Shown: piece after piece, positions 4,834 to 37,776 of the stretch | How positions within the stretch are numbered: position 1 is the first letter of the stretch | Layout: each line of letters opens with the position of its first letter | Source: Planktothrix serta PCC 8927 | GTDB lineage: Bacteria > Cyanobacteriota > Cyanobacteriia > Cyanobacteriales > Microcoleaceae | Length of the DNA stretch: 49,375 nt | Direction of reading: 5' to 3' | NCBI RefSeq assembly: GCF_900010725.2 | Contig: NZ_LR734878.1 | Span: 1-49,375 of the forward strand | Notes under the pieces: generated by a model | Told to the model about the DNA's origin: nothing | The model's database searches: none | The model's input: only the letters and a program-made list of their open reading frames with translations | Made by a program: the position numbers and the translations under genes

Positions 4834-5157
4834 TTAAAAGGATAAATTTAAAGCCGTGAGAATTCTTTCTTTTTGAGATAAATCCCCAATAATTCTTTGT
4901 AAGGGTAATGGTAAAAGCCGAATCAAAGTCGGTACAGCAACAATGGGTTCGCCTTGGGTGAGTTCAGGTTGCTGATAAACGTCAATCACTTCTAAATCAT
5001 AATGATCTTTCAAGTGAGTTTCACAAATATACTTGATGGTTTTCAGAGCCAAAATTGACTTTAAATTAGTTCCAGCAATATATAAACGCAGACAATAATA
5101 TCCTTCCTCAATGGAGGGTTGAGAGTTCTGTTTGGGTGACAAATAATGGTCTTTCAT
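4834..5157 (-). CDS. KaiB-like thioredoxin-fold protein (second of pair)
   Basis: A KaiB-family protein of 107 residues. Recognisable landmarks are YYCLRLYIAGTNLKS (beta-1 and helix start), then VPTLIRLLPLPLQRIIGDLS, matching the clock-protein pattern PTLxxxxPPPxRxIIGDLS. The PPP is degenerate (PLPL). I choose the ATG at 5157, preceded by AGAGGAAAA. The longer frame begins with TTG at 5181 and lacks support. It starts 34 bases after the sister gene. KaiB normally acts on KaiC, but no kaiC or kaiA is in the window, so a role as an adaptor to kinases or receivers is inference. The N-terminal domain of SasA has the same fold. Confidence 0.85.
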   Translation of the reverse strand: MKDHYLSPKQNSQPSIEEGYYCLRLYIAGTNLKSILALKTIKYICETHLKDHYDLEVIDVYQQPELTQGEPIVAVPTLIRLLPLPLQRIIGDLSQKERILTALNLSF

Positions 5158-5191
5158 TAGAGTTTTCCTCTGGGTTTTCAATTAAGAGCTT

Positions 5192-5518
5192 TCAAGGGTT
5201 TTTCCATTCTTCCCCTTTCCATAGTTCTAACCCCACTAAGATTTTTTCGGGATTCGATAAATCTCCAATAATTTGCTTAAAGGGAGGGGGAATTGTTCTA
5301 ACTAATGTCGGAAGTACGAAAATTTGATCTTCCTGGGCGAGGTGGGGATCTTCTAACAAATCAATGATTTCAATGTTATATTGACCCTGAAGATACTGCT
5401 CACAAATTTTTTTTAAATTTGTAAAGGCGGTAATCGCTTTAGGAGTTTGTCCAGCAACATATAAACGTAATTCCCAAAGTTTTGGTTCATTTGGTTTCAA
5501 GTTTTTTTGATTATCCAT
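5192..5518 (-). CDS. KaiB-like thioredoxin-fold protein (first of pair)
   Basis: A 108-residue KaiB-family protein, closer to canonical KaiB than its neighbour. It has [16 protein letters not shown] at the first strand and helix, [13 protein letters not shown] in the middle and [20 protein letters not shown] near the end. The start ATG at 5518 is supported by AGGAAAG five bases upstream. Its length matches clock KaiB (about 102-108). The position between a receiver and a second KaiB-like gene, with no kaiC nearby, suggests a paralogue outside the core oscillator. The two copies differ clearly, so the duplication is not recent. Confidence 0.88.
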
Positions 5519-5616
5519 GATGGCTTTCCTGGGCGCAATAACTTTAAATTTCAGGGTCTGGATTTTAAAAAATAGCTTCTAAACAATTCAGTAGCAGCAG
5601 GATGAAAAACAGAAGT

Positions 5617-6042
5617 TTACCATTTTAAGGCAAGTCTAATCTGTTCAATCAACACAAAGGGATCAAAGGGTTTCATGATCACATCAACCACACCTAAATT
5701 TAAGAATTGGCTTTTATCAATCTGTTCGGCTTTAGCCGATAAGACAACAATTGGGATGTGTAGATGCTCAAATTTTTGGTTGAGTAACTGCACAAATTTT
5801 AACCCATCAATCCCCGGCATCATTAAATCTAAAATAATCGCATCTGGTTTTTCAGATAAGGCTTTGAGCAGTCCTTCTTCCCCATTGTTTGCGGTCAATA
5901 CTTGCCAACCTGCAATTTCTTCAAAACAGCTTTGCATAATTTCTAAAATGGTTTCATCATCATCAATGAGCAATAGCTGTTTGGAACAAGTAAAATTTTC
6001 CTTGATGGGGTTAGATGAATCCATTAAAACTGATGAAAACAT
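5617..6042 (-). CDS. Single-domain response regulator (CheY-like)
   Basis: A 141-residue protein consisting of one receiver domain and a short N-terminal extension. The acidic pocket is DDDE, the phospho-acceptor aspartate is in AIILDLMMPG, and the switch residues are S/T in VVLSAK and K in IMKPFDP. There is no output domain, so it should act by protein contact. The ATG at 6042 is used here; an internal ATG at 6024 (MDSSN) is equally possible because neither has a clear Shine-Dalgarno. It starts about 20 bases after the Hsp20-like gene and lies 98 bases before the KaiB-like pair. Confidence 0.88.
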   Translation of the reverse strand: MFSSVLMDSSNPIKENFTCSKQLLLIDDDETILEIMQSCFEEIAGWQVLTANNGEEGLLKALSEKPDAIILDLMMPGIDGLKFVQLLNQKFEHLHIPIVVLSAKAEQIDKSQFLNLGVVDVIMKPFDPFVLIEQIRLALKW

Positions 6043-18517: not shown

Positions 18518-19306
18518 ATGTCAAATCCTACTCAAATCCTATTAGATATTCCAGAAATTGAACTGCCTCCTACCCAAGATCAACTCCCCTATGATGATGG
18601 AATTCCGATGGAAACAGCGCGCCATAAACTGCAAATGGACTTATTAATAGAACCCCTCAGTCATGCTTTACAAGATCAAGATATTTATATTGGGGGGAAT
18701 ATGTTTGTTTACTATAGTCTCGCCCAAGTTCGCAATCAAGACTTTCGAGGGCCAGATGTTTTTATCGTTTTAGATGTTCCTCGTAAAGAACGAAAAAGCT
18801 GGGTGATTTGGGAAGAAGGAAAAGGGCCTGATCTAGTCATTGAACTACTTTCTGAAAGTACCGCACAACGGGATAAAAACGAGAAAAAATTAATTTATCA
18901 AAATCAAATGCGAGTCACCGAATATTTTTGGTATGATCCATTTAATCCCAAAGATTGGCAAGGATTTCGTTTAGACGGAGGTGATTATCAACCCCTAGAA
19001 CTAGATACTAAAGGACAGTTAGAAAGCCAGAAATTAGGCTTAAAATTAGTTCGCTGGTCAGGAATATTTTATAATATTGATACTGTGTGGTTACGCTGGG
19101 CAACCTTAGAAGGGGAACTATTGCCTAATAGTCAAGAACGAGAAAAAACAGCCCAAGAAAATGCAGAAACTGAACGTCAACGGGCAGAAACTGAACGTCA
19201 ACGAGCAGAAACTGAACGCCAACGGGCAGACAAGGCGGAACAAAAAGCTAATCGTTTAGTCGAATTACTACGGGCTGCGGGGATTGATCCTGATCAAATT
19301 GAATGA
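18518..19306 (+). CDS. Uma2-family PD-(D/E)XK protein with coiled-coil tail
   Basis: A 262-residue Uma2 (DUF820) protein. The restriction-endonuclease-like core is visible as GPDVFIVLDV (metal aspartate), PDLVIELLSEST (E...S) and a following lysine-rich stretch with YFWYDP. After residue about 205 the chain becomes a charged coiled coil made of the heptad AETERQR three times, ending KANRLVELLRAAGIDPDQIE. The family is very abundant in cyanobacteria and is thought to derive from transposon-linked nucleases; cellular roles are mostly unknown. It follows the triple glycosyltransferase by 73 bases. No defence partner is adjacent. Confidence 0.85.
   Translation: MSNPTQILLDIPEIELPPTQDQLPYDDGIPMETARHKLQMDLLIEPLSHALQDQDIYIGGNMFVYYSLAQVRNQDFRGPDVFIVLDVPRKERKSWVIWEEGKGPDLVIELLSESTAQRDKNEKKLIYQNQMRVTEYFWYDPFNPKDWQGFRLDGGDYQPLELDTKGQLESQKLGLKLVRWSGIFYNIDTVWLRWATLEGELLPNSQEREKTAQENAETERQRAETERQRAETERQRADKAEQKANRLVELLRAAGIDPDQIE
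19163..19225 (+). repeat. Coding 21-base tandem repeat
   Basis: Three 21-base units (GCAGAAACTGAACGTCAACG plus G/A) encode the AETERQR heptad of the Uma2 coiled coil. The near identity suggests slipped-strand variation in tail length. Confidence 0.85.
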
Positions 19307-20560: not shown

Positions 20561-21241
20561 ATGTCTAATTATATACCCTTAAAAACAACAATTCTTCCGT
20601 TAGAAAATGGCGATCGCTTAACCCGTCCAGAATTTGAACGGCGTTATCAAGCCATGCCAAATCATCAAAAAGTAGAATTAATTGAAGGAGTAGTTTATAT
20701 GGCTTCCCCATTACGTTTTCGTAGTCATGGAGAACCCCATGCTCAAATTAATACATGGTTAGGGGTTTATTATGCAGCAACCCCTGGGGTTTTAGCCGCC
20801 GATAATACAACAGTACGACTCGATGGAGAAAACGAACCCCAACCCGATGCAATTTTATTTATTAACCCCAATTTAGGAGGACAATGCCATATTAGTGAAG
20901 ATGATTATATTGAAGGTGCGCCAGAATTAATTGTAGAAATTGCAGCTAGTAGTGCGGCTTATGATCTTTATGATAAAAAAAGAGCTTATCAACGGAATGG
21001 GGTACAAGAATATTTAGTTTGGCAGGTGTATGAACGTCAGATTTGTTGGTGGAAACTTCAAGAAGGGGAATATATTGCGTTGGAAACCGATGGAAATGGG
21101 GTGATAAAAAGTCAAGTATTTCCGGGGTTATGGTTAGAGGTGCGATCGCTTTTAGAAGGAAATTTAGCTCAGGTTTTAAAAAAATTACAGGAAGGAATAG
21201 AAAGTGTTGAGCATCAAGAATTTATCCGTCGATTGTGTTAG
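20561..21241 (+). CDS. Uma2-family PD-(D/E)XK protein
   Basis: A 226-residue Uma2 (DUF820) protein. The core shows VELIEGVVYMASP at the start of the fold, PQPDAILFI with the metal aspartate, APELIVEIAASSA as the E-x-S strand and YLVWQVYERQICWW as the final strands. It lacks the heptad tail of the neighbour at 18518, and the two are distant paralogues. Activity is unknown. It precedes the MntA/HepT-like pair by 26 bases on the same strand and could be co-transcribed. Confidence 0.85.
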   Translation: MSNYIPLKTTILPLENGDRLTRPEFERRYQAMPNHQKVELIEGVVYMASPLRFRSHGEPHAQINTWLGVYYAATPGVLAADNTTVRLDGENEPQPDAILFINPNLGGQCHISEDDYIEGAPELIVEIAASSAAYDLYDKKRAYQRNGVQEYLVWQVYERQICWWKLQEGEYIALETDGNGVIKSQVFPGLWLEVRSLLEGNLAQVLKKLQEGIESVEHQEFIRRLC

Positions 21242-22598: not shown

Positions 22599-23216
22599 TT
22601 ATGCTTGACCGCCACGCCATTTAAAAATGATCGTCTCCTCAGCCTGTTTAAACTCGATATCAAACAAATCAAACACCACCTCTCTACCCAAAAGTATTTC
22701 CTCACAAAAATCAGTTTGCGCCCAAGCGATAGGCGCAGCAAAAACATGACCATCCAACTGTATTTCTACCTGTCGTAATAGATACTCAATACTGCCACCA
22801 ACTCCCTCAGCTTGATTATTAACTTCTTCCGATCCTTTAGTATAACCCAAATCTTCACCCAGTTTTTTGCTTATCAAGCTAAGTTCGGCTCCAGAATCCA
22901 CCAGTATTTGGACATTTTCCGAGTTCTGAAATTTAATCGTCACTTCATATCTGGGCTGCCAATCGTGAGATTTCAAAGACCTCATTCTGATCGGGTAAAA
23001 CTTAACAGGCTCAATAAATTCGCTTTCATGTATGCGATCAATTGTATAACTCAATTTAGCTGTATCTGGGGGAATTCCATCTTTCATTTTGTCATAATCT
23101 CGATCATGACTAATCACGCCTTGATTAGTATAAGCGATCCATTGGCCCCGATATTTTTTTAATTTAGGGCGATTGGCTTTATACCAATCATTTGTTGTGG
23201 CATATTCTGGTTCCAT
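22599..23216 (-). CDS. Retropepsin-like aspartic protease-fold protein
   Basis: A 205-residue protein with a single retropepsin-like lobe at about residues 85-190. The active-site motif is ILVDSGAELSLIS, a variant of DTGA/DSGA, followed by hydrophobic strands and LLGREVVFDLF, matching the ALGRDLL-like end of the fold. Such proteins work as homodimers in which each lobe gives one aspartate. The N-terminal 80 residues contain WIAYTNQGVISHD and are of unknown fold. GGGAGATC lies about eight bases before the ATG. It is paired with the DUF29 gene. Confidence 0.78.
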   Translation of the reverse strand: MEPEYATTNDWYKANRPKLKKYRGQWIAYTNQGVISHDRDYDKMKDGIPPDTAKLSYTIDRIHESEFIEPVKFYPIRMRSLKSHDWQPRYEVTIKFQNSENVQILVDSGAELSLISKKLGEDLGYTKGSEEVNNQAEGVGGSIEYLLRQVEIQLDGHVFAAPIAWAQTDFCEEILLGREVVFDLFDIEFKQAEETIIFKWRGGQA

Positions 23217-26200: not shown

Positions 26201-27262
26201 TTATGAATCCAACAAATATCGGTTCCATGAAATAGTCCGCTTAATAGCTGTCTCAATATCAACCTTCAATCCCAAACCCAATGTTTTTTGAGCTAGGGTA
26301 ATATCAGGAACAAACTTAGAATGATTTGAGTTAGGATCTTCTGCAACACGCGATATTATCTTAGGTCTGAGGGGGAAGTGGTTGGCAATCTTCTCTGCAA
26401 GTTGCCTTAACGTTACTCCATAAGGACTACCCACGTTATAACTTAATCCTACCGTTCCCTGTACTAATATATTCAACAGCCAAAAAGCCATATCACTAGG
26501 ATACATATAGCTTCTAACAGTTTCTCCATCCCCTAAAATACGAATTGGCCCTCCTAATAAACCATCTCGAATAAAGTTATTAATGGCCCAGGGTCTATCT
26601 AAAAGCTGGTAAGGGCCGATAAACGCAAAAGGACGAGCATTAACTATCGGTAGTCTATGTTGATTTCGATAAACGGCACACAGAGTTTCTCCCATCCGTT
26701 TAGCTTCCGCGTAGGCAGAACCAATAGAAGCGAAATCTAAAGTTCCGCGAAAACTCTCAGGAATTGTCTCTAATTCTAAGGGTTGGGAACCATAAACTAA
26801 CCCAGAACTAATATTGAGAAATTTTTGTAAATTTGGCAAGCGAGTGGCAGCCATTAAAACTGATTCTGTTCCCTTAACTATGACATCCATTGTTTTTAAT
26901 GGATCGGAAGCATGAAGGCGATTATCAGGATTAGCAGCGGCATGGATAATCCAACTCACATCACTCGAAATATCCAAAAGACTGCGGATATCTCGCTCTA
27001 TAATCACTACATCCTTTCTCATTGCCAAGTGGGGAGCTTTAGCACTAAAATTATAAGCCCTACCTGATAGGAGAATTAATTTTGTATTGAAGTTATGAGT
27101 GTCATTTAAAAAGGCAACTAATTCAGTTAGCCAAGTCCCAATAAAACCCGTACCTCCGGTAATTAAAACGCACTCACCCTTCAAAGCCGATAAAGCATTA
27201 GAGACACCCGTTGTTACCTGCTCGCAATCTTCTTTAATAATCTCAATTAAGTCTTGTCTCAT
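26201..27262 (-). CDS. NAD(P)-dependent epimerase/dehydratase (SDR), sugar operon
   Basis: A 353-residue extended SDR. It has the Rossmann motif [11 protein letters not shown] (about 32-42) and the catalytic pair YAEAK (Y-x3-K) after a [11 protein letters not shown] serine motif. It resembles UDP-glucose 4-epimerase / dTDP-glucose dehydratase relatives, but substrate cannot be told. Its ATG overlaps the aldolase stop by four bases (ATGA), so translation is coupled. As the last gene of the operon it may reduce or epimerise the product of the ThDP and PLP enzymes. In yersiniose synthesis a reductase (YerF) acts after the branch is added, and this gene is a candidate for the same role. That comparison is inference. 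Confidence 0.85.
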
Positions 27263-28275
27263 GACTTCACTGCACCTTCTGCTGCTAGTTTCATCGCCAC
27301 CTCAATAATTAAATCCTCTTGACCTGCTACCACCTTACGGCGGCCTAGTTCAAAAAATACATCCTTCGCATTAACTTTATACTCCTTGGAAATGCGTTCA
27401 ACGTGTTTGGCAAACCCTGAAAAAACTCCAGATAAGCCACTAACTACACTCAGGGATTTAATACTAGGAATAACAGGCATTAATTCTTTCTCAGCAATAT
27501 CTGCTGCATCTAGCATTTTATATAAATCAATGCCTGTTGAAAATCCCATTCTTTCTAACACCGCTACCAACACTTCAAGCTGAGTATTTCCTGAGCCAGC
27601 GCCAAAACCACGAGCCGTACCATCTAAGATAGTTGCTCCCGCCTGGACAGCCGCCACGGAATTAGCAACTGCCATTCCTAGATTATTATGCCCATGAAAA
27701 CCCACTGGAATAGTTAAACTTTTTACTAGCTCTGCTATTCTCTCCGTCACATCACTCGGAAGGTAAGCACCTGCTGAGTCCATAATTACAACGGCTTCAG
27801 CACCGTAAGATTCCATTTTCAAAGATTCTTCCGCCAAAAGCTCCTTTGATGCCATGTGGCTCATCATTAGGACTCCATACACCTCTTTCCCTTTATCACG
27901 AGCATAACCAATATGTCGCTGAGTGATATCTGCTTCGGTGCAGTGAGAGGCAACTCTGACCAAATCTACACCAATTTCTATGGCAGTTTTCAAGTCTTTG
28001 TTAATCGTGGCAAAACCAGGAATAACATGAATGCTTAACTTCGAGTTGACTAGATTCTCCCTAGCTACTTCCAGCATTTCTCGATCGCCGATCAGACTTT
28101 CTCCTACTTGTAGGGAAGAAGCACCGAGGCCATTACCATGTCCCACCTCAACTATTGGAACACCAGCAGCATCGGCCGCCGCGGCATAGAGAGCGATTTG
28201 ACGGGCATTTAACTGATGACGAACGGCATGATTTCCGTCCCGCAGAGTGGGGTCACTAATCAATACAGTTGACAT
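27259..28275 (-). CDS. 4-hydroxy-2-oxovalerate aldolase (DmpG/MhpE type)
   Basis: A 338-residue class II aldolase of the DmpG/BphI/MhpE family. The motif [13 protein letters not shown] (8-20) holds the conserved R12, D13 and base H16 (TLRDGxHAxRHQ in characterised enzymes). GFHGHNNLG supplies metal ligands H194 and H196. The reaction is reversible cleavage of 4-hydroxy-2-oxopentanoate to pyruvate and acetaldehyde. GAGGAGCC precedes the ATG. It overlaps the DmpF-like gene by 20 bases, which matches the known channelling complex of the two. No catechol meta-cleavage genes are present. Placement in a CDP-sugar operon suggests it works in the synthetic direction to make a 2-keto acid donor (inference). 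Confidence 0.92.
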
Positions 28276-29182
28276 AAGGCTCCTCTACTGAGTCACAATC
28301 ATCATAGTCTAAGTTTCTAATATAGTCTTTGGCATATTCTTCGGCTGTGGCGATCGCAGCACAGTTAATAATATCCAGATTGCCAGCATATCTTGGTAGG
28401 TAGTCGCCCAGCCCTTGAACTTTCACCGTAATTACAATCCGGTTATTCTCGAATACTGGAGGTACCACGAGTTGATATCCGGGAACATATAACCGAATAT
28501 TATTAACCATCTCATTAACAAGAGTATTAAGCTCCTCAATATTAGGCTGATCTACTTTGGCAAATACGGTAGTCTGCATATCAATGCAGGGCTGTGCTGG
28601 GTTGAGGATGAGAATTGCCTTAGCGCGATCGCATCCCGAAAACTTTTTAATTCCCTGTTCGGTCGTTTCAATATATTCATCAATATTAGCACGGGTAGCT
28701 GGCCCGGCGCCTCGGGAAGCGATGCTAGAAACCACCTCTATATACTCAACATTTGCGTGTGTGCGCCCGATCAGATAGGCTAAAGGTATAGAAGCCTGAC
28801 CTCCGCAACTCACCATATTAACATTCTTGTACAAGCTGCATTTTTGGATATTCACAGCCGGAACGCACATTTCTCCCACCTTAGCAGGTGTCATATCAAT
28901 CACAATCTTACCTAGCTTTTCTAGTAAAGACCAGTGATAAATGTGATCTCTAGCGGATGTGGCATCAAAAACCAAATCACAGCAGTCGGGTTCTTTAATA
29001 ATAGCCTCAATACTCTGGTCAGAAATTTTGACCCCCAGACTATTTGCCTTTGCCATCCCTGGAGATCCCATATTGCGCCCAATAAATAGAACGCACTCAA
29101 GAAAAGGCGATCGCATTGTCTTAATTAAAAGATCCGTACCGATATTGCCACTTCCCAGTATTGCTACCTTTAGTTTTCGCAT
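28256..29182 (-). CDS. Acetaldehyde dehydrogenase, CoA-acylating (DmpF/MhpF type)
   Basis: A 308-residue enzyme of the DmpF/BphJ/MhpF family. The NAD motif is [10 protein letters not shown] (8-17) and the catalytic cysteine is C126 in [27 protein letters not shown] is a strong family signature. The enzyme interconverts acetaldehyde, CoA and NAD+ with acetyl-CoA and NADH, and forms a complex with the aldolase. An AGGAGGT Shine-Dalgarno sits upstream of the ATG, the strongest in the operon. In catabolic operons it disposes of acetaldehyde. Here it could supply acetaldehyde from acetyl-CoA to the aldolase (inference). Confidence 0.93.
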
Positions 29183-29243
29183 CTTTTTACCTCCTAATTC
29201 TTGCCAAATTCCTATTTATTAATACCAGAGAAATTGGGAAATT

Positions 29244-31031
29244 CTACACAATTTTTTCACGGACGCAATTTTCTAAGTATTCTTCCCGGGGCAGGAATGG
29301 AAACATATCATCATAAGGCATTGACATCATTCTACCGTCATCCATCTTTTTAGAAGCCACTCTCGGAATCAGTAATTGGTTGGGCGGTGTCATCACTTCA
29401 CAAATTACTGCACCCTGATAATTAATAAGTTCAGCCAGTTTAGCATCCAAATCATCAAGACCTAAAATCCTGATAAATTTAATTCCATAGGCATAGGCAA
29501 TCTTTTCCATATCTGGACAACTCACACCGCTATCTTTATCTACACCGATAAAACGACCCTCCTGAAAATTATTTTGGGTGAGTCGAATCAAGAGGTAGCC
29601 ATTATTATTTAAAATGACTAATTTGACGGGAAGATTGTTCTGAGCGATGGTTTGCAACTCTTGGATATTAAACTGAACTGAGCCATCTCCAGTAATGCAA
29701 AAAACATCTTTTCCCTGACTAGCTGCTGCTACACCTACCGATCCAGGCATATAACCCATTGTGGATAGACCACCTGTGATAATATGTCTCTGTCCGAACT
29801 TTACTTGAAATGCCTGGGCGAAAACATGAAAACAAGAACCTGTATCAACTAAGAAAATTGCATCTTCAGAGACTTTTTCCGAAAACCGCCGCATAAAGTG
29901 ATAGGAGTTAATGCCATCTTTTTCCTGTTGATACTCCGGTAAATCAACGGGATACTTTCCTTTCCAAATTTGGGTTTGTTCTCTCCATAGATTATTGTCT
30001 AACTGATAATCACCTAATCTTTCTAGGAGTAAATCTAAAAACAACTTTGCATCTGTCTGGACTGCTATATCTGGGATAACAGAAGGCTTGGTAAGCTCTT
30101 GCTCGTCAACATCAACACAGATTTTTTTGGCATGACGGGCAAAGTCTTGAAAATCGTAACCTACTAAACCGATACCCAGACGACAGCCAATATTAAGTAA
30201 TAGGTCAGAATTTTGAATAGTAAAGTTAGCTGCGCGATCGCCATAAGTCCCAGGTCTACCCACAAACAAAGGATGGGAATGATCAATTAAATCCATCCCT
30301 AGTCTCGATGTCATTACGGGAATGCCAGTTTTTTCTGCTAATTTGTGAAAATCTTTAATAGCACCTGAAAGTCTAATTCCCGCTCCACCCAAAATACAGG
30401 GTCTTCTGCTTTGGCGAATCGCTTCGACAACCTGATCAACCTTCTCCTTCAGGTCATTACTTGACTGCTGTAATTCTGGGGGTGTAAATCCCTCAAATTC
30501 ATCGGGGTCAAAGTAAGCACCTTGAATATCAATGGGAGATTCAATCCATACCGGGCCTACACGATGGGAGGTTGCCAGGTAAATACACTTTTCGACTTCA
30601 TATCTTACCCTAGATAAATCGTTAAGCATGACGGCATATTTAGTCACCTGTTCAAATATGGGTAAGGTATTGAAACCTTGAAGTGCAAATTGTCTCGGCC
30701 CTGTAACAATGGCTTGGGATACCTTAGACTGACCCGAAACAATAATACAGGGGGAAGAATCTACATAAGCTCCCACAACTCCTGTCAATGTATTTAATGC
30801 CCCAGGCCCGGCGGTAACATAAGCAACTCCCAGTTTTCCTGTGAATCTCCCATAGGCTTCCGCCGCCATAACTGCGGATTGCTCATGGTGACAGCAGACA
30901 AATTTCTGTTTCCCATGCTGATACAGTGCATCGGTCAGGTGCATGATCATGCCACCTGTAATCAAGAATACATACTCTCCACCCGCTTCATACAACTTCT
31001 TTGTTATAAAGTCTGCAACCCGCATTTTCAT
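29244..31031 (-). CDS. ThDP-dependent acetolactate synthase-like carboligase
   Basis: A 595-residue ThDP enzyme with the three domains of the acetolactate synthase/pyruvate oxidase superfamily. The cofactor-activating glutamate is E50 (CCHHEQSAVMAAEAYGR). The middle domain starts RRPCILGGAGIR. The Mg-ThDP motif runs from GDGS (about 447) to NNNGY. I choose the ATG at 31031 (MKMRVADF), with AGGTGG 11 bases upstream; a GTG at 31046 is possible. YerE, which adds a two-carbon unit from pyruvate to CDP-3,6-dideoxy-4-ketohexose, belongs to the same superfamily. Together with RfbF/G/H this makes a sugar-modifying carboligase a better guess than branched-chain amino acid synthesis. Whether FAD is bound cannot be told. 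Confidence 0.88.
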   Translation of the reverse strand: MKMRVADFITKKLYEAGGEYVFLITGGMIMHLTDALYQHGKQKFVCCHHEQSAVMAAEAYGRFTGKLGVAYVTAGPGALNTLTGVVGAYVDSSPCIIVSGQSKVSQAIVTGPRQFALQGFNTLPIFEQVTKYAVMLNDLSRVRYEVEKCIYLATSHRVGPVWIESPIDIQGAYFDPDEFEGFTPPELQQSSNDLKEKVDQVVEAIRQSRRPCILGGAGIRLSGAIKDFHKLAEKTGIPVMTSRLGMDLIDHSHPLFVGRPGTYGDRAANFTIQNSDLLLNIGCRLGIGLVGYDFQDFARHAKKICVDVDEQELTKPSVIPDIAVQTDAKLFLDLLLERLGDYQLDNNLWREQTQIWKGKYPVDLPEYQQEKDGINSYHFMRRFSEKVSEDAIFLVDTGSCFHVFAQAFQVKFGQRHIITGGLSTMGYMPGSVGVAAASQGKDVFCITGDGSVQFNIQELQTIAQNNLPVKLVILNNNGYLLIRLTQNNFQEGRFIGVDKDSGVSCPDMEKIAYAYGIKFIRILGLDDLDAKLAELINYQGAVICEVMTPPNQLLIPRVASKKMDDGRMMSMPYDDMFPFLPREEYLENCVREKIV

Positions 31032-31201
31032 TTTTTTTATGACCACCTAATAGGTTTTATATGAAGTAAATAATGCCTAATTATTTTTACTTATCGAATT
31101 TTTTTGTGCTTATATCGTTTCCGCAAATGATTGCTACAAATAGAACTGGTAAGCCTCCGCCTAGTCAACCCATTATGTAGCAAACATTTGGGTAATCCAT
31201 A

Positions 31202-32305
31202 TTACTTAATAAGCTCAATCAAATTCTTACACACGAAGTCAATATCTTCCTCTACGAGATTAGCTGCTGAAGCCAATGAAATACCTCGTTCCCATACTTT
31301 CTTGGCAACCGGATTAGGAAAACGTTGCTCCAATACTGGAAACCGACTCATTTGGGGAAAGCCAGGGCGACAATGAATATTTAATTCCTTAAGCTTCTGC
31401 AAAACGACATCGCGACTGGCAGAAATACTATCCTCTAACAAAATTGATGGATAGCAATAATTGCTTTTACAGCCTTCCTTTTCTTTAATAATTTTGATAC
31501 CAGATACATTTTTCAACCTTTCATAGTACCAATTAAAAATCTGACGTTTCTTGCCCATTAATTCTTCAATACGCTCTACTTGAGCTAGTGCTAATGCAGC
31601 AGTCAGATTGGCAATTGTGTATTGATAACCGAGCATATCTGACCAAAAAACTGCTTGAGAGTCAGTTCGCCCCATTGAAGCTAATAATTTAGCTTTCTCA
31701 TACATTTCTTCGTTATTAGTTACGAAAATTCCGCCTTCACCACTGACAGTCAGTTTTGCACCATGAAAGCTAAAACAACCTATATCCCCAAAAGTTCCCA
31801 CTTTTTGACCTTTAAATTCTGCTCCCATCGCAGGTGCTGCGTCTTCAATAACATATAGCCCATATTTATGAGCAATAGCCATGATCTCATCCATCTGTGC
31901 TGGATGTCCGAAAGTATGAACTAACATAATAGCTTTAGTCTTCGGCGTGATAGCTTTCTCAATGGCTTGAGGATCGATACACCAAGTATCTGGATCTATA
32001 TCGACAAAAACACATTTAGCACCCGTGTAAGCAATCGCATAAGCGGTAGCTACCCAACTAAAGTCTGTGACAATAACTTCATCTTCCTTGCCTAAATCAA
32101 GTACGGTGGCTGAAAGGTGAAGTGCTAAAGTACAACAATGAGTTGCCAGCGCATATTTGACACCCAAATAATCTGCTACTGTCTTCTCAAGTTTCTTGGC
32201 ATATAGATCATAAGTTTCATAGAAACCATTAAGGGTGGCATCCGTGACATAATCTACCTCTTTTTGAGTAATCCAAGGCCCTGCAAAACTAATTTTCTTT
32301 CTCAT
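31202..32305 (-). CDS. DegT/DnrJ/EryC1 sugar aminotransferase
   Basis: A 367-residue PLP enzyme of the DegT family. The Schiff-base lysine is K184 in FSFHGAKLTVSGEGG, and IEDAAPAMGAEF is the PLP-aspartate motif. Members transfer an amino group from glutamate to a keto sugar nucleotide; it looks most like 4-amino-4-deoxy (perosamine-synthetase type) enzymes. AGAGGC lies six bases before the ATG. It starts 12 bases after the class I aminotransferase gene. It is related in fold to the RfbH of the same operon but keeps lysine, so it should transaminate and not dehydrate. Confidence 0.9.
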   Translation of the reverse strand: MRKKISFAGPWITQKEVDYVTDATLNGFYETYDLYAKKLEKTVADYLGVKYALATHCCTLALHLSATVLDLGKEDEVIVTDFSWVATAYAIAYTGAKCVFVDIDPDTWCIDPQAIEKAITPKTKAIMLVHTFGHPAQMDEIMAIAHKYGLYVIEDAAPAMGAEFKGQKVGTFGDIGCFSFHGAKLTVSGEGGIFVTNNEEMYEKAKLLASMGRTDSQAVFWSDMLGYQYTIANLTAALALAQVERIEELMGKKRQIFNWYYERLKNVSGIKIIKEKEGCKSNYCYPSILLEDSISASRDVVLQKLKELNIHCRPGFPQMSRFPVLEQRFPNPVAKKVWERGISLASAANLVEEDIDFVCKNLIELIK

Positions 32306-32317
32306 GGTTTAGCCTCT

Positions 32318-33472
32318 TTATAGTTTTAACAATTGTTCACACGCTTGTTCCAAAATCGCATTCGATTTCGCAAAGCAAAAACGCACTAAATTTTCACCTT
32401 TGTTACTAGCATAGAATGCTTCACCTGGCACTGTGGCAACACCCACTTTTTTCAGGATAAACATTGCCTTTTCTTTACTGGTTTTACCTGGCAAAGAACT
32501 CACATCTGCCAGTATATAGTAGGCACCGTGTGGAATGTAAGGGGTTATTCCAATCTTTAATAATGTTCCACATAGTTGATCACGCTTTATCTGGTATTCA
32601 TGAGATAACCATTGATAATAATCGGGTAGCAACTGGTTAATACCTTCTGCTACCCCCTTTTGCAAGGGTGCAGGACTGCAAACATAGATTAAATCACTAA
32701 CATAACCAATCATTTGTGCCCATTTTTCGTGACAAACCGCATAACCCACACGCCAACCTGTAATGCTAAAAGTCTTGGAATAACCTGATATTGTAATAGT
32801 GCGCTCCGCTATACTGTCTAATGAAGCGGGGCTGATATGTTTACGTCCATCATAAAGAAAATACTCGTAAATTTCATCCGTAAACACAAATAAATCATGT
32901 TTTATAGCCAAGTCTGCTATTTTTTCTAATTCATCTTTCGTAAATACTTTACCACTCGGATTTGCTGGTGTACAAATCATAATACCTTTTGTTTTTGATG
33001 TAACAACTTGCTTCAGTTCATCCATATCAAAAGTCCAGTCGGGGGGTGATAATGTCACATAGATAGGCACTGCACCAACTGCTAACAAGGTACTTATATG
33101 ATAACCATAGTAAGGTTCAAAAAAGATAACTTCATCTCCAGGGTTAAGTAATGCTAAACACGCAGAGTAAAAAGCACCTGTAGCACCGCTAGAGACAATA
33201 ATATTTTTTTCTGGATCGGTTTTAACGTTATTGTAGGAAAGCATCTTATGCTCAATAGCCTTCCGTAGTGATTCAATGCCATCATAGCGGGTATAATGAT
33301 TTTCACCTTGTTCTATAGCCTCTATTGCACCTTGCTTAACAGGAAGAGGTATCTCTAAATCACAAACTCCTTGAGACATATTAATGCCACCTATACGATC
33401 ACACTCAATAGACATATTTCGTATCTCAGACTGAGAGATTGACTGAGAAAGTCTGCTAAACATTAAAGGCAT
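32318..33472 (-). CDS. Class I/II PLP aminotransferase
   Basis: A 384-residue fold-type I aminotransferase of the AspC/kynurenine aminotransferase group. The catalytic lysine is K233 in TISGYSKTFSITGWRVGY, and the PLP-binding residues are in CTPANPSGKV and FTDEIYEYF. GGGAGA precedes the ATG at 33472. Such enzymes act on amino and keto acids, not on sugar nucleotides. Its place in this operon therefore hints that a keto-acid intermediate, or an open-chain branch, is aminated, or that glutamate is regenerated. It lies 23 bases after the GNAT gene. Confidence 0.88.
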   Translation of the reverse strand: MPLMFSRLSQSISQSEIRNMSIECDRIGGINMSQGVCDLEIPLPVKQGAIEAIEQGENHYTRYDGIESLRKAIEHKMLSYNNVKTDPEKNIIVSSGATGAFYSACLALLNPGDEVIFFEPYYGYHISTLLAVGAVPIYVTLSPPDWTFDMDELKQVVTSKTKGIMICTPANPSGKVFTKDELEKIADLAIKHDLFVFTDEIYEYFLYDGRKHISPASLDSIAERTITISGYSKTFSITGWRVGYAVCHEKWAQMIGYVSDLIYVCSPAPLQKGVAEGINQLLPDYYQWLSHEYQIKRDQLCGTLLKIGITPYIPHGAYYILADVSSLPGKTSKEKAMFILKKVGVATVPGEAFYASNKGENLVRFCFAKSNAILEQACEQLLKL

Positions 33473-33495
33473 CTTAGTATTTCTCCCTTAAACAG

Positions 33496-34179
33496 TTAAA
33501 GAGTTTTTGGCACATATTTCATACACACAAAATAATTGTCAGGAGGTTCCTGATCATCTTGACTTAAGGGTATATGATTGATTTCACCGTTGCTTTCTAC
33601 ACGACGCAAGGGTTGTTTTCCTTCTATAATAAATCCCAGATTGGTATAGAAATTGATAGCATGAGTATTGTCTTGGAGGGTTCTTAAACAGAAACCTTTT
33701 GGAATAATGGTAGACTCAGCCCAATTTAACAAGGATTTAACCCCATAAGACATGATGCCTCGTTCTACACATTGAACTCCCCGAATAACATTATCTAGTT
33801 CCATCAAACCTTCTTCATTTAGTGAATTTGCAAATCCTAAGTGTCCAATGGGATGACCATAGCAATTCACCACCAAAAATAATATCCGGTCTGGAACATC
33901 TAAGACAAGTTTACGTAGCCACTGTTTAGTCCCTTCTAGGGTTACTTTAAATTGATTATGAAAAGTAGTAGCTTCTTCTCGCCATTGAGCTAACTTTGCG
34001 ATCAAATCTTCATCTTCTGCGTACAATTCACTAACACAAAGAAGGTAGCCTTTCTCATCAGCTAACCTTATGCTACATGATACCAATTCATCAAAGCGGT
34101 AGATTGACTTGAGAGAGGCAAATTCTGCTATAACTTTTGCTTGATAAACTTTTATTTCTTCCGTACAAATGTTACTCAT
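33496..34179 (-). CDS. GNAT-family N-acyltransferase
   Basis: A protein of about 227 residues with a GNAT fold. [20 protein letters not shown] forms the beta-2/3/4 strands and the C-terminal part [20 protein letters not shown] is the classic RxxNxxAIxFYxxxGF end of the family. I place the start at the ATG at 34179 (MSNICTEEI), eight bases inside rfbH (ATGAGTAA) and preceded by AAAGGA. A longer frame from 34203 is possible. The likely role is N-acylation of an amino sugar made by the DegT enzyme, as in FdtC/PerB-like partners. The substrate is inference. Confidence 0.8.
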
Positions 34180-35518
34180 ATTTAACGAATCCTTTGAAAA
34201 CATTTACCACATAAGCTAACATTTCCTCAGTCAACCCTGGAAATAGCCCAATCCAAAATGATCTTGCCATAACTTGATCGGTTTTTGGCAAATCTCCCAC
34301 AATTCGATAATTTAACCCTTCATAAGCAGGTTGCTTAATCAAATTTCCACCAAATAATAATCTAGTACCAATCCGTTTTTCTTCCAAATATTGGACTAAC
34401 TCATTCCGAGTAAAAGGAGCATTTTCTTTAACAGAAATAAGAAAACCAAACCAACTAGGTTCGGAACCAGGAGTAGACTGAGGCAATTGTAACACATCCT
34501 GTAAATCTTGCAACTGCTGATACATAAAATCAAAATTATGCTGACGTTTTGCCACAAATTCAGGTAATTTATCCAATTGAGCAACACCGACAGCCGCCTG
34601 CATATCGGTTAGTTTTAAGTTATAACCAACATGGGAATAAGTGTATTTGTGGTCATAGCCCAAAGGTAAATCTCCTAACTGCCAACCAAAACGCTTATTA
34701 CAGGTATTATCAACCCCAGGAGCGCACCAACAATCTCGACCCCAATCTCTAAAGGATTCTACAATTTTTTTTAGGCGTGTATCATTGGTTAAAACTGCGC
34801 CTCCCTCACCCATAGTGATATGATGGGCAGGATAAAAACTGACAGTTGATAAATGACCGAAACTTCCGGTTTTTTTGCCTTGATAAACACTCCCTACCGC
34901 ATCACAATTATCTTCAATTAACCACAAATCATGTTTTTCGACAAAAGCCATCACCGCTTCTAAATTAAAGGGATTTCCCAAGGTATGGGCAATCATAATC
35001 GCACGGGTACGAGGCGAAACTGCTAACTCTAATTGATCAATATCAATATCATAAGTAGGCAGTTTCACATCCACAAATACGGGGACTAACTGATTTTGAA
35101 AAATCGGATTCACCGTTGTAGGAAATCCTGCCGCCACCGTAATTACTTCATCTCCGGGTTTCAGTTGCTTATCCCCTAATTTGGGCGATGTTAAAGCAGA
35201 TAAGGCAACTAAATTAGCAGAAGACCCGGAGTTAACCAGTAAGCAGTGTTTAACCCCCATCCACTCTGCAAAACGTTGTTCAAATTCCGCAGCATAGCGT
35301 CCTGTAGTTAACCAAAAATCCAGTGACGCATCAACTAAATGTACCAGTTCTTGCTCATCAAACACTTTACCCGAAGCCGGGATATAGGTTTGACCTGGGA
35401 TAAAGGTTTTGTGAGTAAACTTATATTGGTAGTAGTCTTTGACCGCAGCAAAAACTTGTTCTCTGAGTGCTTGTTCTTGATCGGAGGTACTAGCAGGACG
35501 AGGTAAAGATTGAGTCAT
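34172..35518 (-). CDS. rfbH: CDP-4-keto-6-deoxyglucose 3-dehydrase (E1, RfbH)
   Basis: A 448-residue PMP/[2Fe-2S] dehydrase of the DdhC/RfbH type. The residue aligned with the Schiff-base lysine is histidine (H232 in [14 protein letters not shown]), the mark of dehydrases as opposed to aminotransferases. Four cysteines keep the exact spacing C205-X57-C263-X1-C265-X7-C273 known for the E1 iron-sulfur cluster. The reaction removes the C3 hydroxyl of CDP-4-keto-6-deoxy-D-glucose. It normally requires the flavin/iron-sulfur reductase E3 (DdhD/RfbI), which is not in the window. I use the ATG at 35518 with AGGAAG upstream; a GTG at 35524 is possible. Confidence 0.95.
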
Positions 35519-35547
35519 GATCACTTCCTAAAATTAGCGATTTCTCT

Positions 35548-35967
35548 TTATTTTAAAGATTTTTTAGCAAAATAAGGACTTGCTGGATTCACAATTAACC
35601 GTTGTTGACGAGGATCTATTAATACATCCATATCCTCCACAGGAATAGCCCCTAATAAGACCTCAGTATCTCCTGATAATACCATTGCTCGACAAGTAGT
35701 AGAACGATTTTCAAAGCGCACTTCTACAGGGCCAACAATCTCTAGTTTCAACTTTGAACCATCTGCTAATTCAGCAATTTGTTCTTCTAATTTCGGTAAA
35801 TCTAGCTGGAGTTTAATGCTTTCATTAATAGCTAACATATAAGCACCACTATCAACTAAAGCATTCACTGTTATTTTCTTGACATTTTCCGGCTGGATAT
35901 ATCCCCGTCTTGCTAAAACCAAATCATCGCCACTAATCAATTCGATTTCTGCGTAGGTAAGTCCCAT
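35548..35967 (-). CDS. Retropepsin-like (clan AA) aspartic protease-fold protein
   Basis: A protein of about 139 residues that is almost entirely one retropepsin-like lobe. NALVDSGAYMLAI carries the active-site DSGA, and VLLGAIPVEDMDVLID matches the LLG...D end of clan AA small proteases common in cyanobacteria. I use the ATG at 35967 (MGLTYAEIEL); AAGGAG lies about 14 bases upstream. It sits inside the CDP-sugar operon, 22 bases after rfbG and 29 bases before rfbH, on the same strand. No role in sugar synthesis is known to me. It may be an inserted passenger gene. Confidence 0.82.
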   Translation of the reverse strand: MGLTYAEIELISGDDLVLARRGYIQPENVKKITVNALVDSGAYMLAINESIKLQLDLPKLEEQIAELADGSKLKLEIVGPVEVRFENRSTTCRAMVLSGDTEVLLGAIPVEDMDVLIDPRQQRLIVNPASPYFAKKSLK

Positions 35968-35989
35968 GAGATTTAATTGCACTCCTTTT

Positions 35990-36973
35990 TTAATTTAAGC
36001 GATCGCGTAAAAAATCTTGATACCATTTTATCGTCTCCTGTAAACATTCATCAAGGGAATATTTAGGCTTCCAATTCAACATTTCACGAGCTTTTTTAGC
36101 GGAAAGATACTGATGCTTAATTTCATTTTTGGCTTGATTCAAAATAATAGGTTCTAAATCCCTCTTATCCATCAAAGCTAGAATTTTCTGCACCAGTTCT
36201 AACACTGTAATTTGCAGTTCATTACTAAAATTGAACGCCTCGCCCCAGATTTCTTTTCTTTCCATTTGTTCCGCCAAATGCAGATAGGCTAATACCCCAT
36301 CCCTAACATAAAAATAATCCCGAATATAACTACCATCACTACGGATAGTAACAGGTTTATCGCGCAATGCTGAACGAATAGTATCCGGTACAATCCGGTT
36401 AAAATTCAAGTCCCCACCGCCATAAAAATTGCCACAGCGAGTAATACAAACTGGCAATCCATAACTAACATAATAAGTGCGACAAATCAAATCTGCACAA
36501 CTTTTAGACACATCATAAGGGTGTTCCCCTTGTAAGGGTGTGGTTTCATCGTAGGGCAAAATTTCTTGATCCCCGTAAGCCTTATCACTAGAAGCCACTA
36601 CAATTCGACTCACTCCCCCCACCCGACGACAGGCTTCTAATAGGTTCCAAGTTCCTTTAATATTGGCTTCAAAGGTCGCTAAGGGTTCACGGTTAGCTAC
36701 TCCGACAATGGTTTGAGCCGCTAAGTGAAAAACAGTATCGACTTCATACTCATTAATCGCTCGTTCTAGGGTTGGTAAATCTTCAATACAACCCCGAACA
36801 ATATTAATTTGATGATGCCAGTTTTCAGTATACAATCGAGACTGGGGAACACCATCTCGGATTAAAGCCGTTACCCTAGCTCCTCGCTGCACTAACTCCG
36901 CTACTAACCAACTTCCTAATAACCCCGTACAACCTGTGACAAACACAGAGCGATCGCGCCAGAATTGACTCAT
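35990..36973 (-). CDS. rfbG: CDP-glucose 4,6-dehydratase
   Basis: A 327-residue extended SDR. The NAD motif is [14 protein letters not shown] and the catalytic residues are in [12 protein letters not shown] (S-x-D-K pattern of CDP-glucose dehydratase) and [12 protein letters not shown] (Y-x3-K). It converts CDP-D-glucose to CDP-4-keto-6-deoxy-D-glucose. The start at 36973 (MSQFW) overlaps the rfbF stop as ATGA and has GGAAGG about seven bases upstream. Upstream ATGs at 36979 and 37009 are less likely. It forms the standard pair with rfbF. Confidence 0.94.
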
Positions 36974-37749
36974 TTCCATACCTTCCAAGGAGCTTGTTGA
37001 GTTTCCCACATTTTATTCAGTTCAGTGTATTCTTTAAAGGTATCCATAGCATAAAAAAAGCCGTGATGCTGATAACTCATTAACTGACCCTCCGCCGTTA
37101 AACGTTCTAAAGGTTCCCGTTCTAATATACAATGCCCCCCCTCTAAATAATCAAATACTTTGCGGTTAAAGACAAAATAACCCGCACTCACCCATTTGTT
37201 ATCCTTAATCTTCTCCCCAAACTTCAAAACCCTAGCTTCTCGTTCATCAATATCCACAATTCCATAACGAGAAGGCGGTTGTACTGTTGTGACGGTTGCC
37301 AGTTTCCCATGTTCTTTATGAAAACTGAGTAATTCTCCAATATTGACATCAGCCAGACCATCTCCATAAGTGACCATAAACAGATCATCTTCGATATATT
37401 TCTCGATCTGCTTAATTCTTCCTCCGGTCTGGGTTTCAAGTCCTGTATTAGCTAACGTTACCCGAAAATTCTGCTCATCGTGATTATTCAGATAACTAAT
37501 TTGGTTAGGAACTCCTAAACCGATGGTAAAGTCATTGTTCATCGCTTCATAGTTGAGGAAATATTCCTTGATCATATTTCCCCGATATCCCAAACAGGTG
37601 ATAAAATCTAAGAACCCATAATGGGCATAGAGTTTCATAATATGCCAAATAATCGGGCGTCCGCCCACTTCAACTAAAGGTTTAGGACGATATTCTGTTT
37701 CTTCTCGAAGGCGAGTTCCCAGACCTCCGGCTAAAATTACAACTTGCAT
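36970..37749 (-). CDS. rfbF: Glucose-1-phosphate cytidylyltransferase
   Basis: A 259-residue nucleotidyltransferase. The signature is [16 protein letters not shown] followed by [13 protein letters not shown], with the DGLADVNI metal motif and a late [10 protein letters not shown] typical of RfbF. It makes CDP-glucose from CTP and glucose-1-phosphate, the first committed step of CDP-3,6-dideoxyhexose synthesis. The ATG at 37749 is chosen; a TTG at 37761 would add four residues. It is the first gene of the eleven-gene minus-strand operon ending at 26201. Confidence 0.95.
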
Positions 37750-37776
37750 CGCTTGCCCCAATATTTAATAAACAAA

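Follow-up and report, generated by a model that had tools for sequence, protein, structure and literature searches.

The window analysed here is a stretch of 49,375 nucleotides from Planktothrix serta PCC 8927 (contig NZ_LR734878.1), and its central element is a minus-strand operon running from position 37761 to position 26201. In this order, the operon encodes RfbF, an RfbG-like protein, a retropepsin-like open reading frame (ORF), RfbH, a GNAT-type acetyltransferase, a class I/II aminotransferase, a DegT-family aminotransferase, a carboligase dependent on thiamine diphosphate (ThDP), the enzymes DmpF and DmpG (together DmpFG), and a short-chain dehydrogenase/reductase (SDR). Judging from its genes, the operon probably makes a CDP-activated, C4-branched, ten-carbon deoxysugar of the erwiniose type, with DmpFG running in the synthetic direction and providing the donor, which is predicted to be 4R. 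The features bearing most directly on this reading are the following.

36970..37761, minus strand: RfbF, glucose-1-phosphate cytidylyltransferase (TIGR02623, 329.7 bits; cut-off 300.25)
35990..37009, minus strand: RfbG-like CDP-glucose 4,6-dehydratase (top NCBIfam family TIGR02622, 232 bits, below the cut-off of 278.45)
34172..35524, minus strand: RfbH, CDP-4-keto-6-deoxyglucose-3-dehydrase, E1 (NF011936, 760.9 bits; cut-off 423)
34700..34906, minus strand: RfbH residues 207-275, C-X57-C-X1-C-X7-C (pattern search)
29244..31046 (GTG start) or from ATG 31031, minus strand: YerE/ErwE-like ThDP carboligase (three TPP domains; structure match; trees)
30882..30884, minus strand: Glu55 of the ThDP enzyme, in HHEQ (Glu in 58 of 58 rows other than acetolactate synthase, ALS)
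28256..29182, minus strand: DmpF, acetylating acetaldehyde dehydrogenase (TIGR03215, 387.9 bits; cut-off 282.25)
28805..28807, minus strand: DmpF Cys126 (Cys in 39 of 39 aligned rows)
27259..28275, minus strand: DmpG, sugar-linked type of 4-hydroxy-2-oxovalerate aldolase (TIGR03217, 392.4 bits; cut-off 286; DmpG tree)
28027..28029, minus strand: DmpG His83, at the BphI Leu87 column (alignment)
27421..27423, minus strand: DmpG Phe285, at the BphI Tyr290 column (alignment)
26201..27262, minus strand: extended SDR, proposed branch-ketone reductase (PF01370; GGTGFIG and YAEAK; adjoins DmpG in 17 of 29 other loci)

The DmpFG pair and the ThDP carboligase

The DmpF and DmpG ORFs overlap by 20 bases (28256-28275), and both proteins pass the NCBIfam equivalog cut-offs. 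DmpG carries the DmpG_comm domain; its residues R12, D13, H194 and H196 are kept in all 67 aligned DmpG sequences and H16 in 65 of them. Cys126 of DmpF is taken to be the catalytic cysteine. A preliminary description of this DNA had called the pair intact, overlapping and catalytically complete, which these scores and alignments bear out. It had also placed the pair downstream of the ThDP enzyme and RfbF/G/H. The shared strand and the upstream genes are indeed present, but the GNAT gene, the two aminotransferase genes and the retropepsin-like ORF had been left out, and the RfbG-like protein scores below its cut-off; among the genes for CDP-3,6-dideoxy-4-ketohexose near the ThDP gene, RfbF and RfbH lie above theirs.

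The ThDP enzyme has the three-domain architecture of ThDP decarboxylases. Its ATG start at 31031 agrees with the start in a close relative, the GTG at 31046 being the alternative. Glu55 is presumably catalytic, as in the rest of the superfamily, and a GDG motif is found in the window enzyme and in 55 of the 58 non-ALS rows, with the first glycine replaced by cysteine in the other three. The protein falls under every cut-off among the 25 of 53 NCBIfam models listed, the best being TIGR00118 (370.4 against 538.35 bits). The top solved structure, 8rph, scores 439 bits, compared with 252 bits for the best ALS structure, which places the enzyme closer to a YerE-like protein than to ALS. The 8rph entry is named only thiamine pyrophosphate-binding protein, and its identity with JanthE is inferred from a CDG motif described in PMC12247030; here and below, literature statements refer to those parts of each cited text that were available. 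Within its own genome, the enzyme has three further relatives at 28-34% identity, of which the ALS-like ones stand at 33-34%; two of the three were placed on a tree, where they branch apart at 100/100. The closest named relative, from Oscillatoriales cyanobacterium USR001, is 94% identical.

Conservation of the linkage across genomes

The association of DmpFG with this carboligase was examined first in the phylum of the window, sampled as 386 genomes with the window's own counted in. A ThDP relative at E ≤ 1e-110 occurs in 47 of them, including the window's; in the neighbourhoods of 20 of the other 46, DmpF and DmpG adjoin the ThDP gene in 3 and not in 17, some contigs being short. DmpG at E ≤ 1e-45 occurs in five of the 386 genomes, again including the window's, and DmpF and a ThDP gene are adjacent to it in all five. 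The divergence of its ThDP enzyme keeps the fifth of these genomes (G223) off the list of ThDP-bearing genomes.

The query for a scan of named genomes was an alignment of four ThDP sequences, all DmpFG-linked, and was hence biased towards their kin; the scan returned 29 loci. At a ThDP identity of at least 65%, the order ThDP-DmpF-DmpG-SDR is present in 16 of 16 loci (the SDR of L072 being cut at a contig end), at 45-48% the order is DmpF-DmpG-ThDP in 6 of 6, and below 40% DmpFG is present in none of 7. Overall, DmpFG adjoins the ThDP gene in all 22 relatives at 45% or above, two of which are contigs already in the phylum sample. Many of these records are metagenome-assembled genomes (MAGs), and binning errors may account for some origins, archaeal included; the label MAG is absent from the record titles of USR001, Geomonas limicola Red745 (L071) and Clostridium gasigenes DSM 12272 (L073). 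Additionally, a search of 369 genomes from the class of a Comamonadaceae genome gave six ThDP relatives and found DmpG in 27 genomes, at 28 places. Two of these places, at 65% identity, adjoin ThDP genes, and the other 26 (30-46%) do not, within about 1.5 kb.

When the searches are pooled, with L076 and L078 dropped as repeats of contigs already counted, 29 loci other than that of the window have ThDP, DmpF and DmpG genes together on the same strand, a recurrence that chance cannot explain. The order is ThDP-DmpF-DmpG in 19 loci, with the SDR next in 17, and DmpF-DmpG-ThDP in 10. Best matches to RfbF, RfbG and RfbH are also present in 21 of the 29, several of the other eight being short or ending near the match. 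In three loci (L063, L067 and L071), the genes found, of those searched for, are RfbF, RfbG, RfbH, ThDP, DmpF, DmpG and SDR alone, which is read as the minimal set. The carriers include genomes labelled archaeal, Geobacterales and Gastranaerophilales as well as viral contigs, and the ThDP proteins of L061 and L062 are identical. A genome search for conserved adjacency had been named beforehand as a test of the preliminary description, and the loci recovered by it indicate that DmpFG is no accidental neighbour. An earlier generalization, which limited DmpFG to ThDP relatives with at least 45% identity, was dropped, as L097, L102, L103 and L149 pair DmpFG with more distant ThDP enzymes.

Some loci show peculiarities of their own. 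DmpF and DmpG accompany four of five ThDP matches on viral contigs of IMG/VR (L095, L096, L097 and L099, of 192, 75, 66 and 23 kb), some with RfbG or RfbH matches. Phage-type genes near the cassette comprise a helicase and an exonuclease in L096 and a head maturation protease in L097, with a weak tail match only in L095. A ThDP search of plasmids gave no match at 1e-90, and one of phage records matched 18, of which the 10 listed stand at about 30% identity and are ALS where annotated. A second ThDP relative lies within the DmpFG-linked loci L074 (6224-7948) and L040 (2108-3898). DmpF of L040 (6877-7753) and both DmpF and ThDP of L099 (3860-8464) are split into separate ORF pieces, possibly through frameshifts or assembly errors.

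Phylogeny of the carboligase and the aldolase

The ThDP tree comprises 60 rows (29 DmpFG-linked, 29 unlinked and 2 ALS), and linkage to DmpFG changes twice on it, compared with a mean of 20.3 for shuffled labels and with none of 500 shuffles as low, although near-copies favour a low count and one flank is shorter than 3 kb in 9 of the 29 unlinked rows. The linked enzymes form one clade of 26 rows (97/96) and one of 3 rows (L097, L102 and L103); the L149 enzyme lies closest to the latter. The 26 linked rows of the main clade and the 29 unlinked rows differ at 21 conserved columns (for instance, window residues 79, 107, 124, 248, 401-407 and 486), and no tie between these columns and donor size could be drawn.

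The DmpG tree has 67 rows. Adding the window and L149, the locus of G223, to the 29 pooled loci gives 31 sugar-linked loci, whose DmpG sequences form one set (100/98) together with two from plasmid clusters. This set excludes the 8 reference DmpG and 23 of the 24 unlinked ones, "unlinked" meaning no ThDP match within a short locus; the remaining unlinked sequence, L125, joins just outside (94/85). Most of the eight reference DmpFG loci are accompanied by hydratases, dioxygenases or similar genes, and they were classed as catabolic from annotated neighbours, the Vibrio (L112) and Pseudonocardia (L114) loci being less clear. In the two plasmid clusters, DmpFG of the biosynthetic set lies alongside KAS III and acyl carrier protein (ACP) genes in Streptomyces (L100) and alongside ATP-grasp and aminotransferase genes in Phaeobacter (L101); these pairs apparently serve other biosynthetic uses.

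Active site of DmpG and predicted stereochemistry of the donor

The sugar-linked aldolases differ from the catabolic ones at one active-site position throughout and at a second in 29 of 31 sequences. The window DmpG has Phe285 at the Tyr290 column and His83 at the Leu87 column of BphI, so that neither residue of this 4S-specific enzyme is matched. At the Tyr290 column, phenylalanine is found in 31 of 31 sugar-linked sequences and tyrosine in all 32 others of the reference (8 of 8) and unlinked (24 of 24) groups; the two distant outgroup rows have histidine, and the two plasmid-cluster rows phenylalanine and cysteine. At the Leu87 column, the sugar-linked sequences have histidine in 19, tyrosine in 5, phenylalanine in 5 and leucine in 2 (L066 and L081), whereas leucine is found in 8 of 8 reference and 23 unlinked sequences, with isoleucine in one. 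DmpG of pWW53 has leucine at 87 and tyrosine at 290.

In BphI, the wild-type enzyme takes the (4S) isomer only, the Y290F variant loses stereocontrol, and the double variants L87N/Y290F and L87W/Y290F take only the (4R) isomer (PMC3962088). The natural change of tyrosine to phenylalanine, together with histidine at the Leu87 column, thus leads to the prediction of a 4R donor. From the alignment, it stands at about an even chance that the sugar-linked aldolases would make this isomer instead of the 4S product of BphI, and a simple loss of stereocontrol may be the milder outcome. If the two residues were changed back, the product would be expected to shift towards 4S. Erwiniose is probably 3,6,8-trideoxy-4-C-[(R)-1-hydroxyethyl]-D-gulo-octose, a structure whose C7 would have the R configuration, in agreement with a 4R donor.

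Deoxysugar genes and the aminotransferase arm

RfbH resembles the solved E1 structures 3bcx (594 bits) and 3bb8 (590 bits), passes NF011936 and has a cysteine pattern starting at residue 207, which is presumably the E1 [2Fe-2S] motif; the exact pattern is present in 24 of 37 RfbH matches examined. The sole NAD_binding_1 (PF00175) match in the genome is a protein like ferredoxin-NADP reductase (FNR) with a CpcD domain, and ferredoxin or FNR may serve RfbH in place of a dedicated E3 reductase. The remaining genes of the operon are the following.

35548..35982, minus strand: retropepsin-like ORF (PF13975/PF13650, slightly above cut-offs)
33496..34203, minus strand: GNAT-type acetyltransferase (PF13302)
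32318..33472, minus strand: class I/II aminotransferase (PF00155; under every cut-off among the 25 NCBIfam models listed)
31202..32305, minus strand: DegT-family sugar aminotransferase (PF01041, 350 bits; solved relatives named sugar aminotransferase and perosamine synthetase)

The last three genes (31202-34203) separate RfbH from the ThDP gene. A GNAT relative is found in just one other of the 386 phylum genomes. Their place is taken by a second SDR gene in both L039 and L059, joined in L059 by a gene for an FkbM-type methyltransferase. The three window genes may serve either amination of the branch or a second sugar. In G352 (L153, 8246-14024), a GNAT-DegT fusion follows RfbF-RfbG-RfbH, and then come a TylF-like gene and a split transketolase pair. 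The idea of a GNAT/DegT arm independent of branching was dropped because of this fusion, with the split transketolase two genes on.

Proposed pathway and alternative explanations

From the gene content, the intact catalytic residues, the conserved linkage and the separate DmpG set, a direction, an acceptor and a donor, a role for the SDR and a product may be proposed. RfbF and the RfbG-like enzyme would provide CDP-4-keto-6-deoxyglucose, from which RfbH and an electron donor would remove O3 to give CDP-4-keto-3,6-dideoxyhexose. DmpF would convert acetyl-CoA to acetaldehyde, which DmpG would join to pyruvate as 4-hydroxy-2-oxopentanoate. The ThDP enzyme would decarboxylate this product and move a 3-hydroxybutyryl unit onto the C4 ketone of the sugar, and the SDR would reduce the new branch ketone.

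A synthetic DmpFG feeding a YerE-type enzyme towards a C10 sugar had already been proposed in the preliminary description. The idea is favoured because of the conserved linkage, the trees and the published donor preference of ErwE, and it would hold in this core; the aminotransferase and GNAT genes, the apparent lack of E3 and the DmpG substitutions had been missing from it. A broader version is possible but distinctly tentative: a widespread biosynthetic form of DmpFG, with a natural counterpart of the engineered stereo-inverting change in its active site, would serve bacterial, archaeal and phage carboligases of the ErwE type by supplying (4R)-4-hydroxy-2-oxopentanoate, and the C10 sugar would here be further aminated and N-acylated.

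Several observations weigh against the proposed pathway. ErwE is likened to the window enzyme by its published description, not by its sequence or gene cluster. Seven of the 29 loci of the named-genome scan have a YerE-like enzyme without DmpFG, so that YerE-like enzymes in general do not require the pair. The exact cysteine motif is missing from 13 of the 37 RfbH matches, 9 of them within the 21 loci bearing RfbF, RfbG and RfbH matches; the RfbG-like protein is under the TIGR02622 cut-off, though this is still its best family; and no dedicated E3 reductase was found in the genome, which has no FAD_binding_6 (PF00970) match. The DmpG changes lie within one clade, and the count of 31 of 31 does not stand for 31 independent events. 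Moreover, the two loci L066 and L081 retain leucine at 87, and histidine, tyrosine and phenylalanine at this position are not among the engineered changes in the available text of PMC3962088.

Other explanations start from the same genes. If the ThDP enzyme used pyruvate, as reported for YerE, the product would be a C8 yersiniose-type sugar and DmpFG would have a different task, for instance to produce or dispose of acetaldehyde. In favour of this, YerE-like relatives often lack DmpFG (17 of 20 phylum neighbourhoods and the seven named loci), but the presence of DmpFG follows the ThDP tree, linked and unlinked enzymes differ at the 21 conserved columns, and DmpG, whose set has its own active-site change, would not be needed, which makes it unlikely. 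A longer acyl-CoA could also enter the proposed route, DmpG then forming, for example, 4-hydroxy-2-oxohexanoate and the route an 11-carbon sugar. BphI does accept longer aldehydes, which are favoured when its Leu89 is changed to alanine (PMC3962088). In the sugar-linked DmpG, this column holds isoleucine, leucine or methionine in 31 of 31, and DmpF and DmpG both pass equivalog cut-offs for acetaldehyde and 4-hydroxy-2-oxovalerate; this variant appears rather improbable.

It is very unlikely that the class I/II aminotransferase of the operon instead transaminates 4-hydroxy-2-oxopentanoate to an amino acid or acyl group, with no role as a ThDP donor. Such an enzyme does lie in this operon and beside DmpG-DmpF on the Phaeobacter plasmid, but the nearest relatives, L039 and L059, keep ThDP-DmpF-DmpG-SDR with no match to it in the stretch examined. 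DmpFG as a remnant of aromatic catabolism, an accidental neighbour of sugar genes, would suit the classically catabolic families and the setting of most reference loci. Its recurrence beside ThDP genes (five of five phylum genomes with DmpG; 29 loci) and the separate DmpG set contradict this, and the genome has no match to the hydratase TIGR03220, a weak test that matched 1 of 14 control genomes and missed E. coli despite mhpD beside mhpFE. The ThDP gene could be the housekeeping ALS of the genome, a possibility set out beforehand as one that would refute the preliminary description, and TIGR00118 is its best NCBIfam family. Its score is 370 bits against a cut-off of 538, and the genome has three other relatives, the ALS-like ones at 33-34% identity to it and two of the three branching apart. 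On cut-off, tree and recurrence evidence, the remnant of aromatic catabolism, its accidental placement and the housekeeping ALS were all rejected, the remnant and the housekeeping enzyme each having a negligible probability.

Other features of the window

Ten further ORFs of the window were scanned. They include several glycosyltransferases, two GDP-mannose-dehydratase-like SDRs (below the family cut-off) and one C-methyltransferase-like protein, which fits a surface-polysaccharide region. Two Uma2-family ORFs (18518-19306 and 20561-21241) lie on either side of a GDP-mannose-dehydratase-like gene. Small retropepsin-like proteins are encoded at 35548-35982, inside the operon, and at 22599-23216, and the relative L059 has two retropepsin-like copies at the same place of its operon (4946-5804). 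Scans for consensus promoters and terminators gave counts at shuffle level (35 compared with 34.1, and 8 compared with 8.8).

Comparison with known systems

According to the preliminary description, no pathway of this kind was known to have been characterised, which was wrong in part: ErwE-type carboligation and a C10 branched sugar are already in print, and what is new here is the separate sugar-linked DmpG set with active-site changes. A survey of literature listings found nothing tying DmpFG to such a cluster, which is not proof of absence, and an aldolase and a dehydrogenase may already be treated in the original ErwE publication (Steitz 2022, PMC9306805); none of the gene-cluster terms sought occurs in the available text of PMC8657720. 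The findings point to a genetic source of the hydroxylated donor reportedly preferred by ErwE-type enzymes, and a textbook catabolic pair becomes a recognisable biosynthetic marker. In effect, the cassette would make C10 branched sugars predictable from the genomes of groups distant from the known producers.

The window pair is homologous to DmpFG, BphJI and MhpFE of aromatic catabolism and shares their catalytic residues. Its DmpG, however, belongs to a separate tree set, with phenylalanine at the Tyr290 column and, among the sugar-linked sequences, mostly histidine, tyrosine or phenylalanine at the Leu87 column, and the pair is predicted to run in the opposite direction and with the opposite C4 configuration.

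Among the branched-sugar systems, YerE of Yersinia pseudotuberculosis, which makes yersiniose A, likewise uses ThDP to place an acyl unit at C4 of the CDP-ketosugar proposed here. Its donor is pyruvate, its donors are limited to transfer of a C3 chain at most, and the available text describes no link to DmpFG (PMC12247030). JanthE accepts 4-hydroxy-2-oxovalerate with benzaldehyde (PMC12188165). Caryophyllose, a 3,6-dideoxyhexose whose branch at C4 is hydroxylated (PMC5706390), involves in Mycobacterium marinum the YerE-like enzyme MMAR_2332 with an ErwE-like donor preference, which resembles the window proposal, but its branch is a six-carbon tetrahydroxyhexyl chain. The nearest likeness is to ErwE of Pectobacterium atrosepticum, a YerE-like ThDP enzyme that reportedly couples 4-hydroxy-2-oxoacids, not pyruvate, to CDP-4-keto-3,6-dideoxyglucose to form erwiniose (PMC12247030), a ten-carbon (PMC8657720), C4-branched (PMC9912281) sugar. 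The window system would share this kind of enzyme, acceptor, donor and product, to which it adds the aminotransferases and the GNAT protein.

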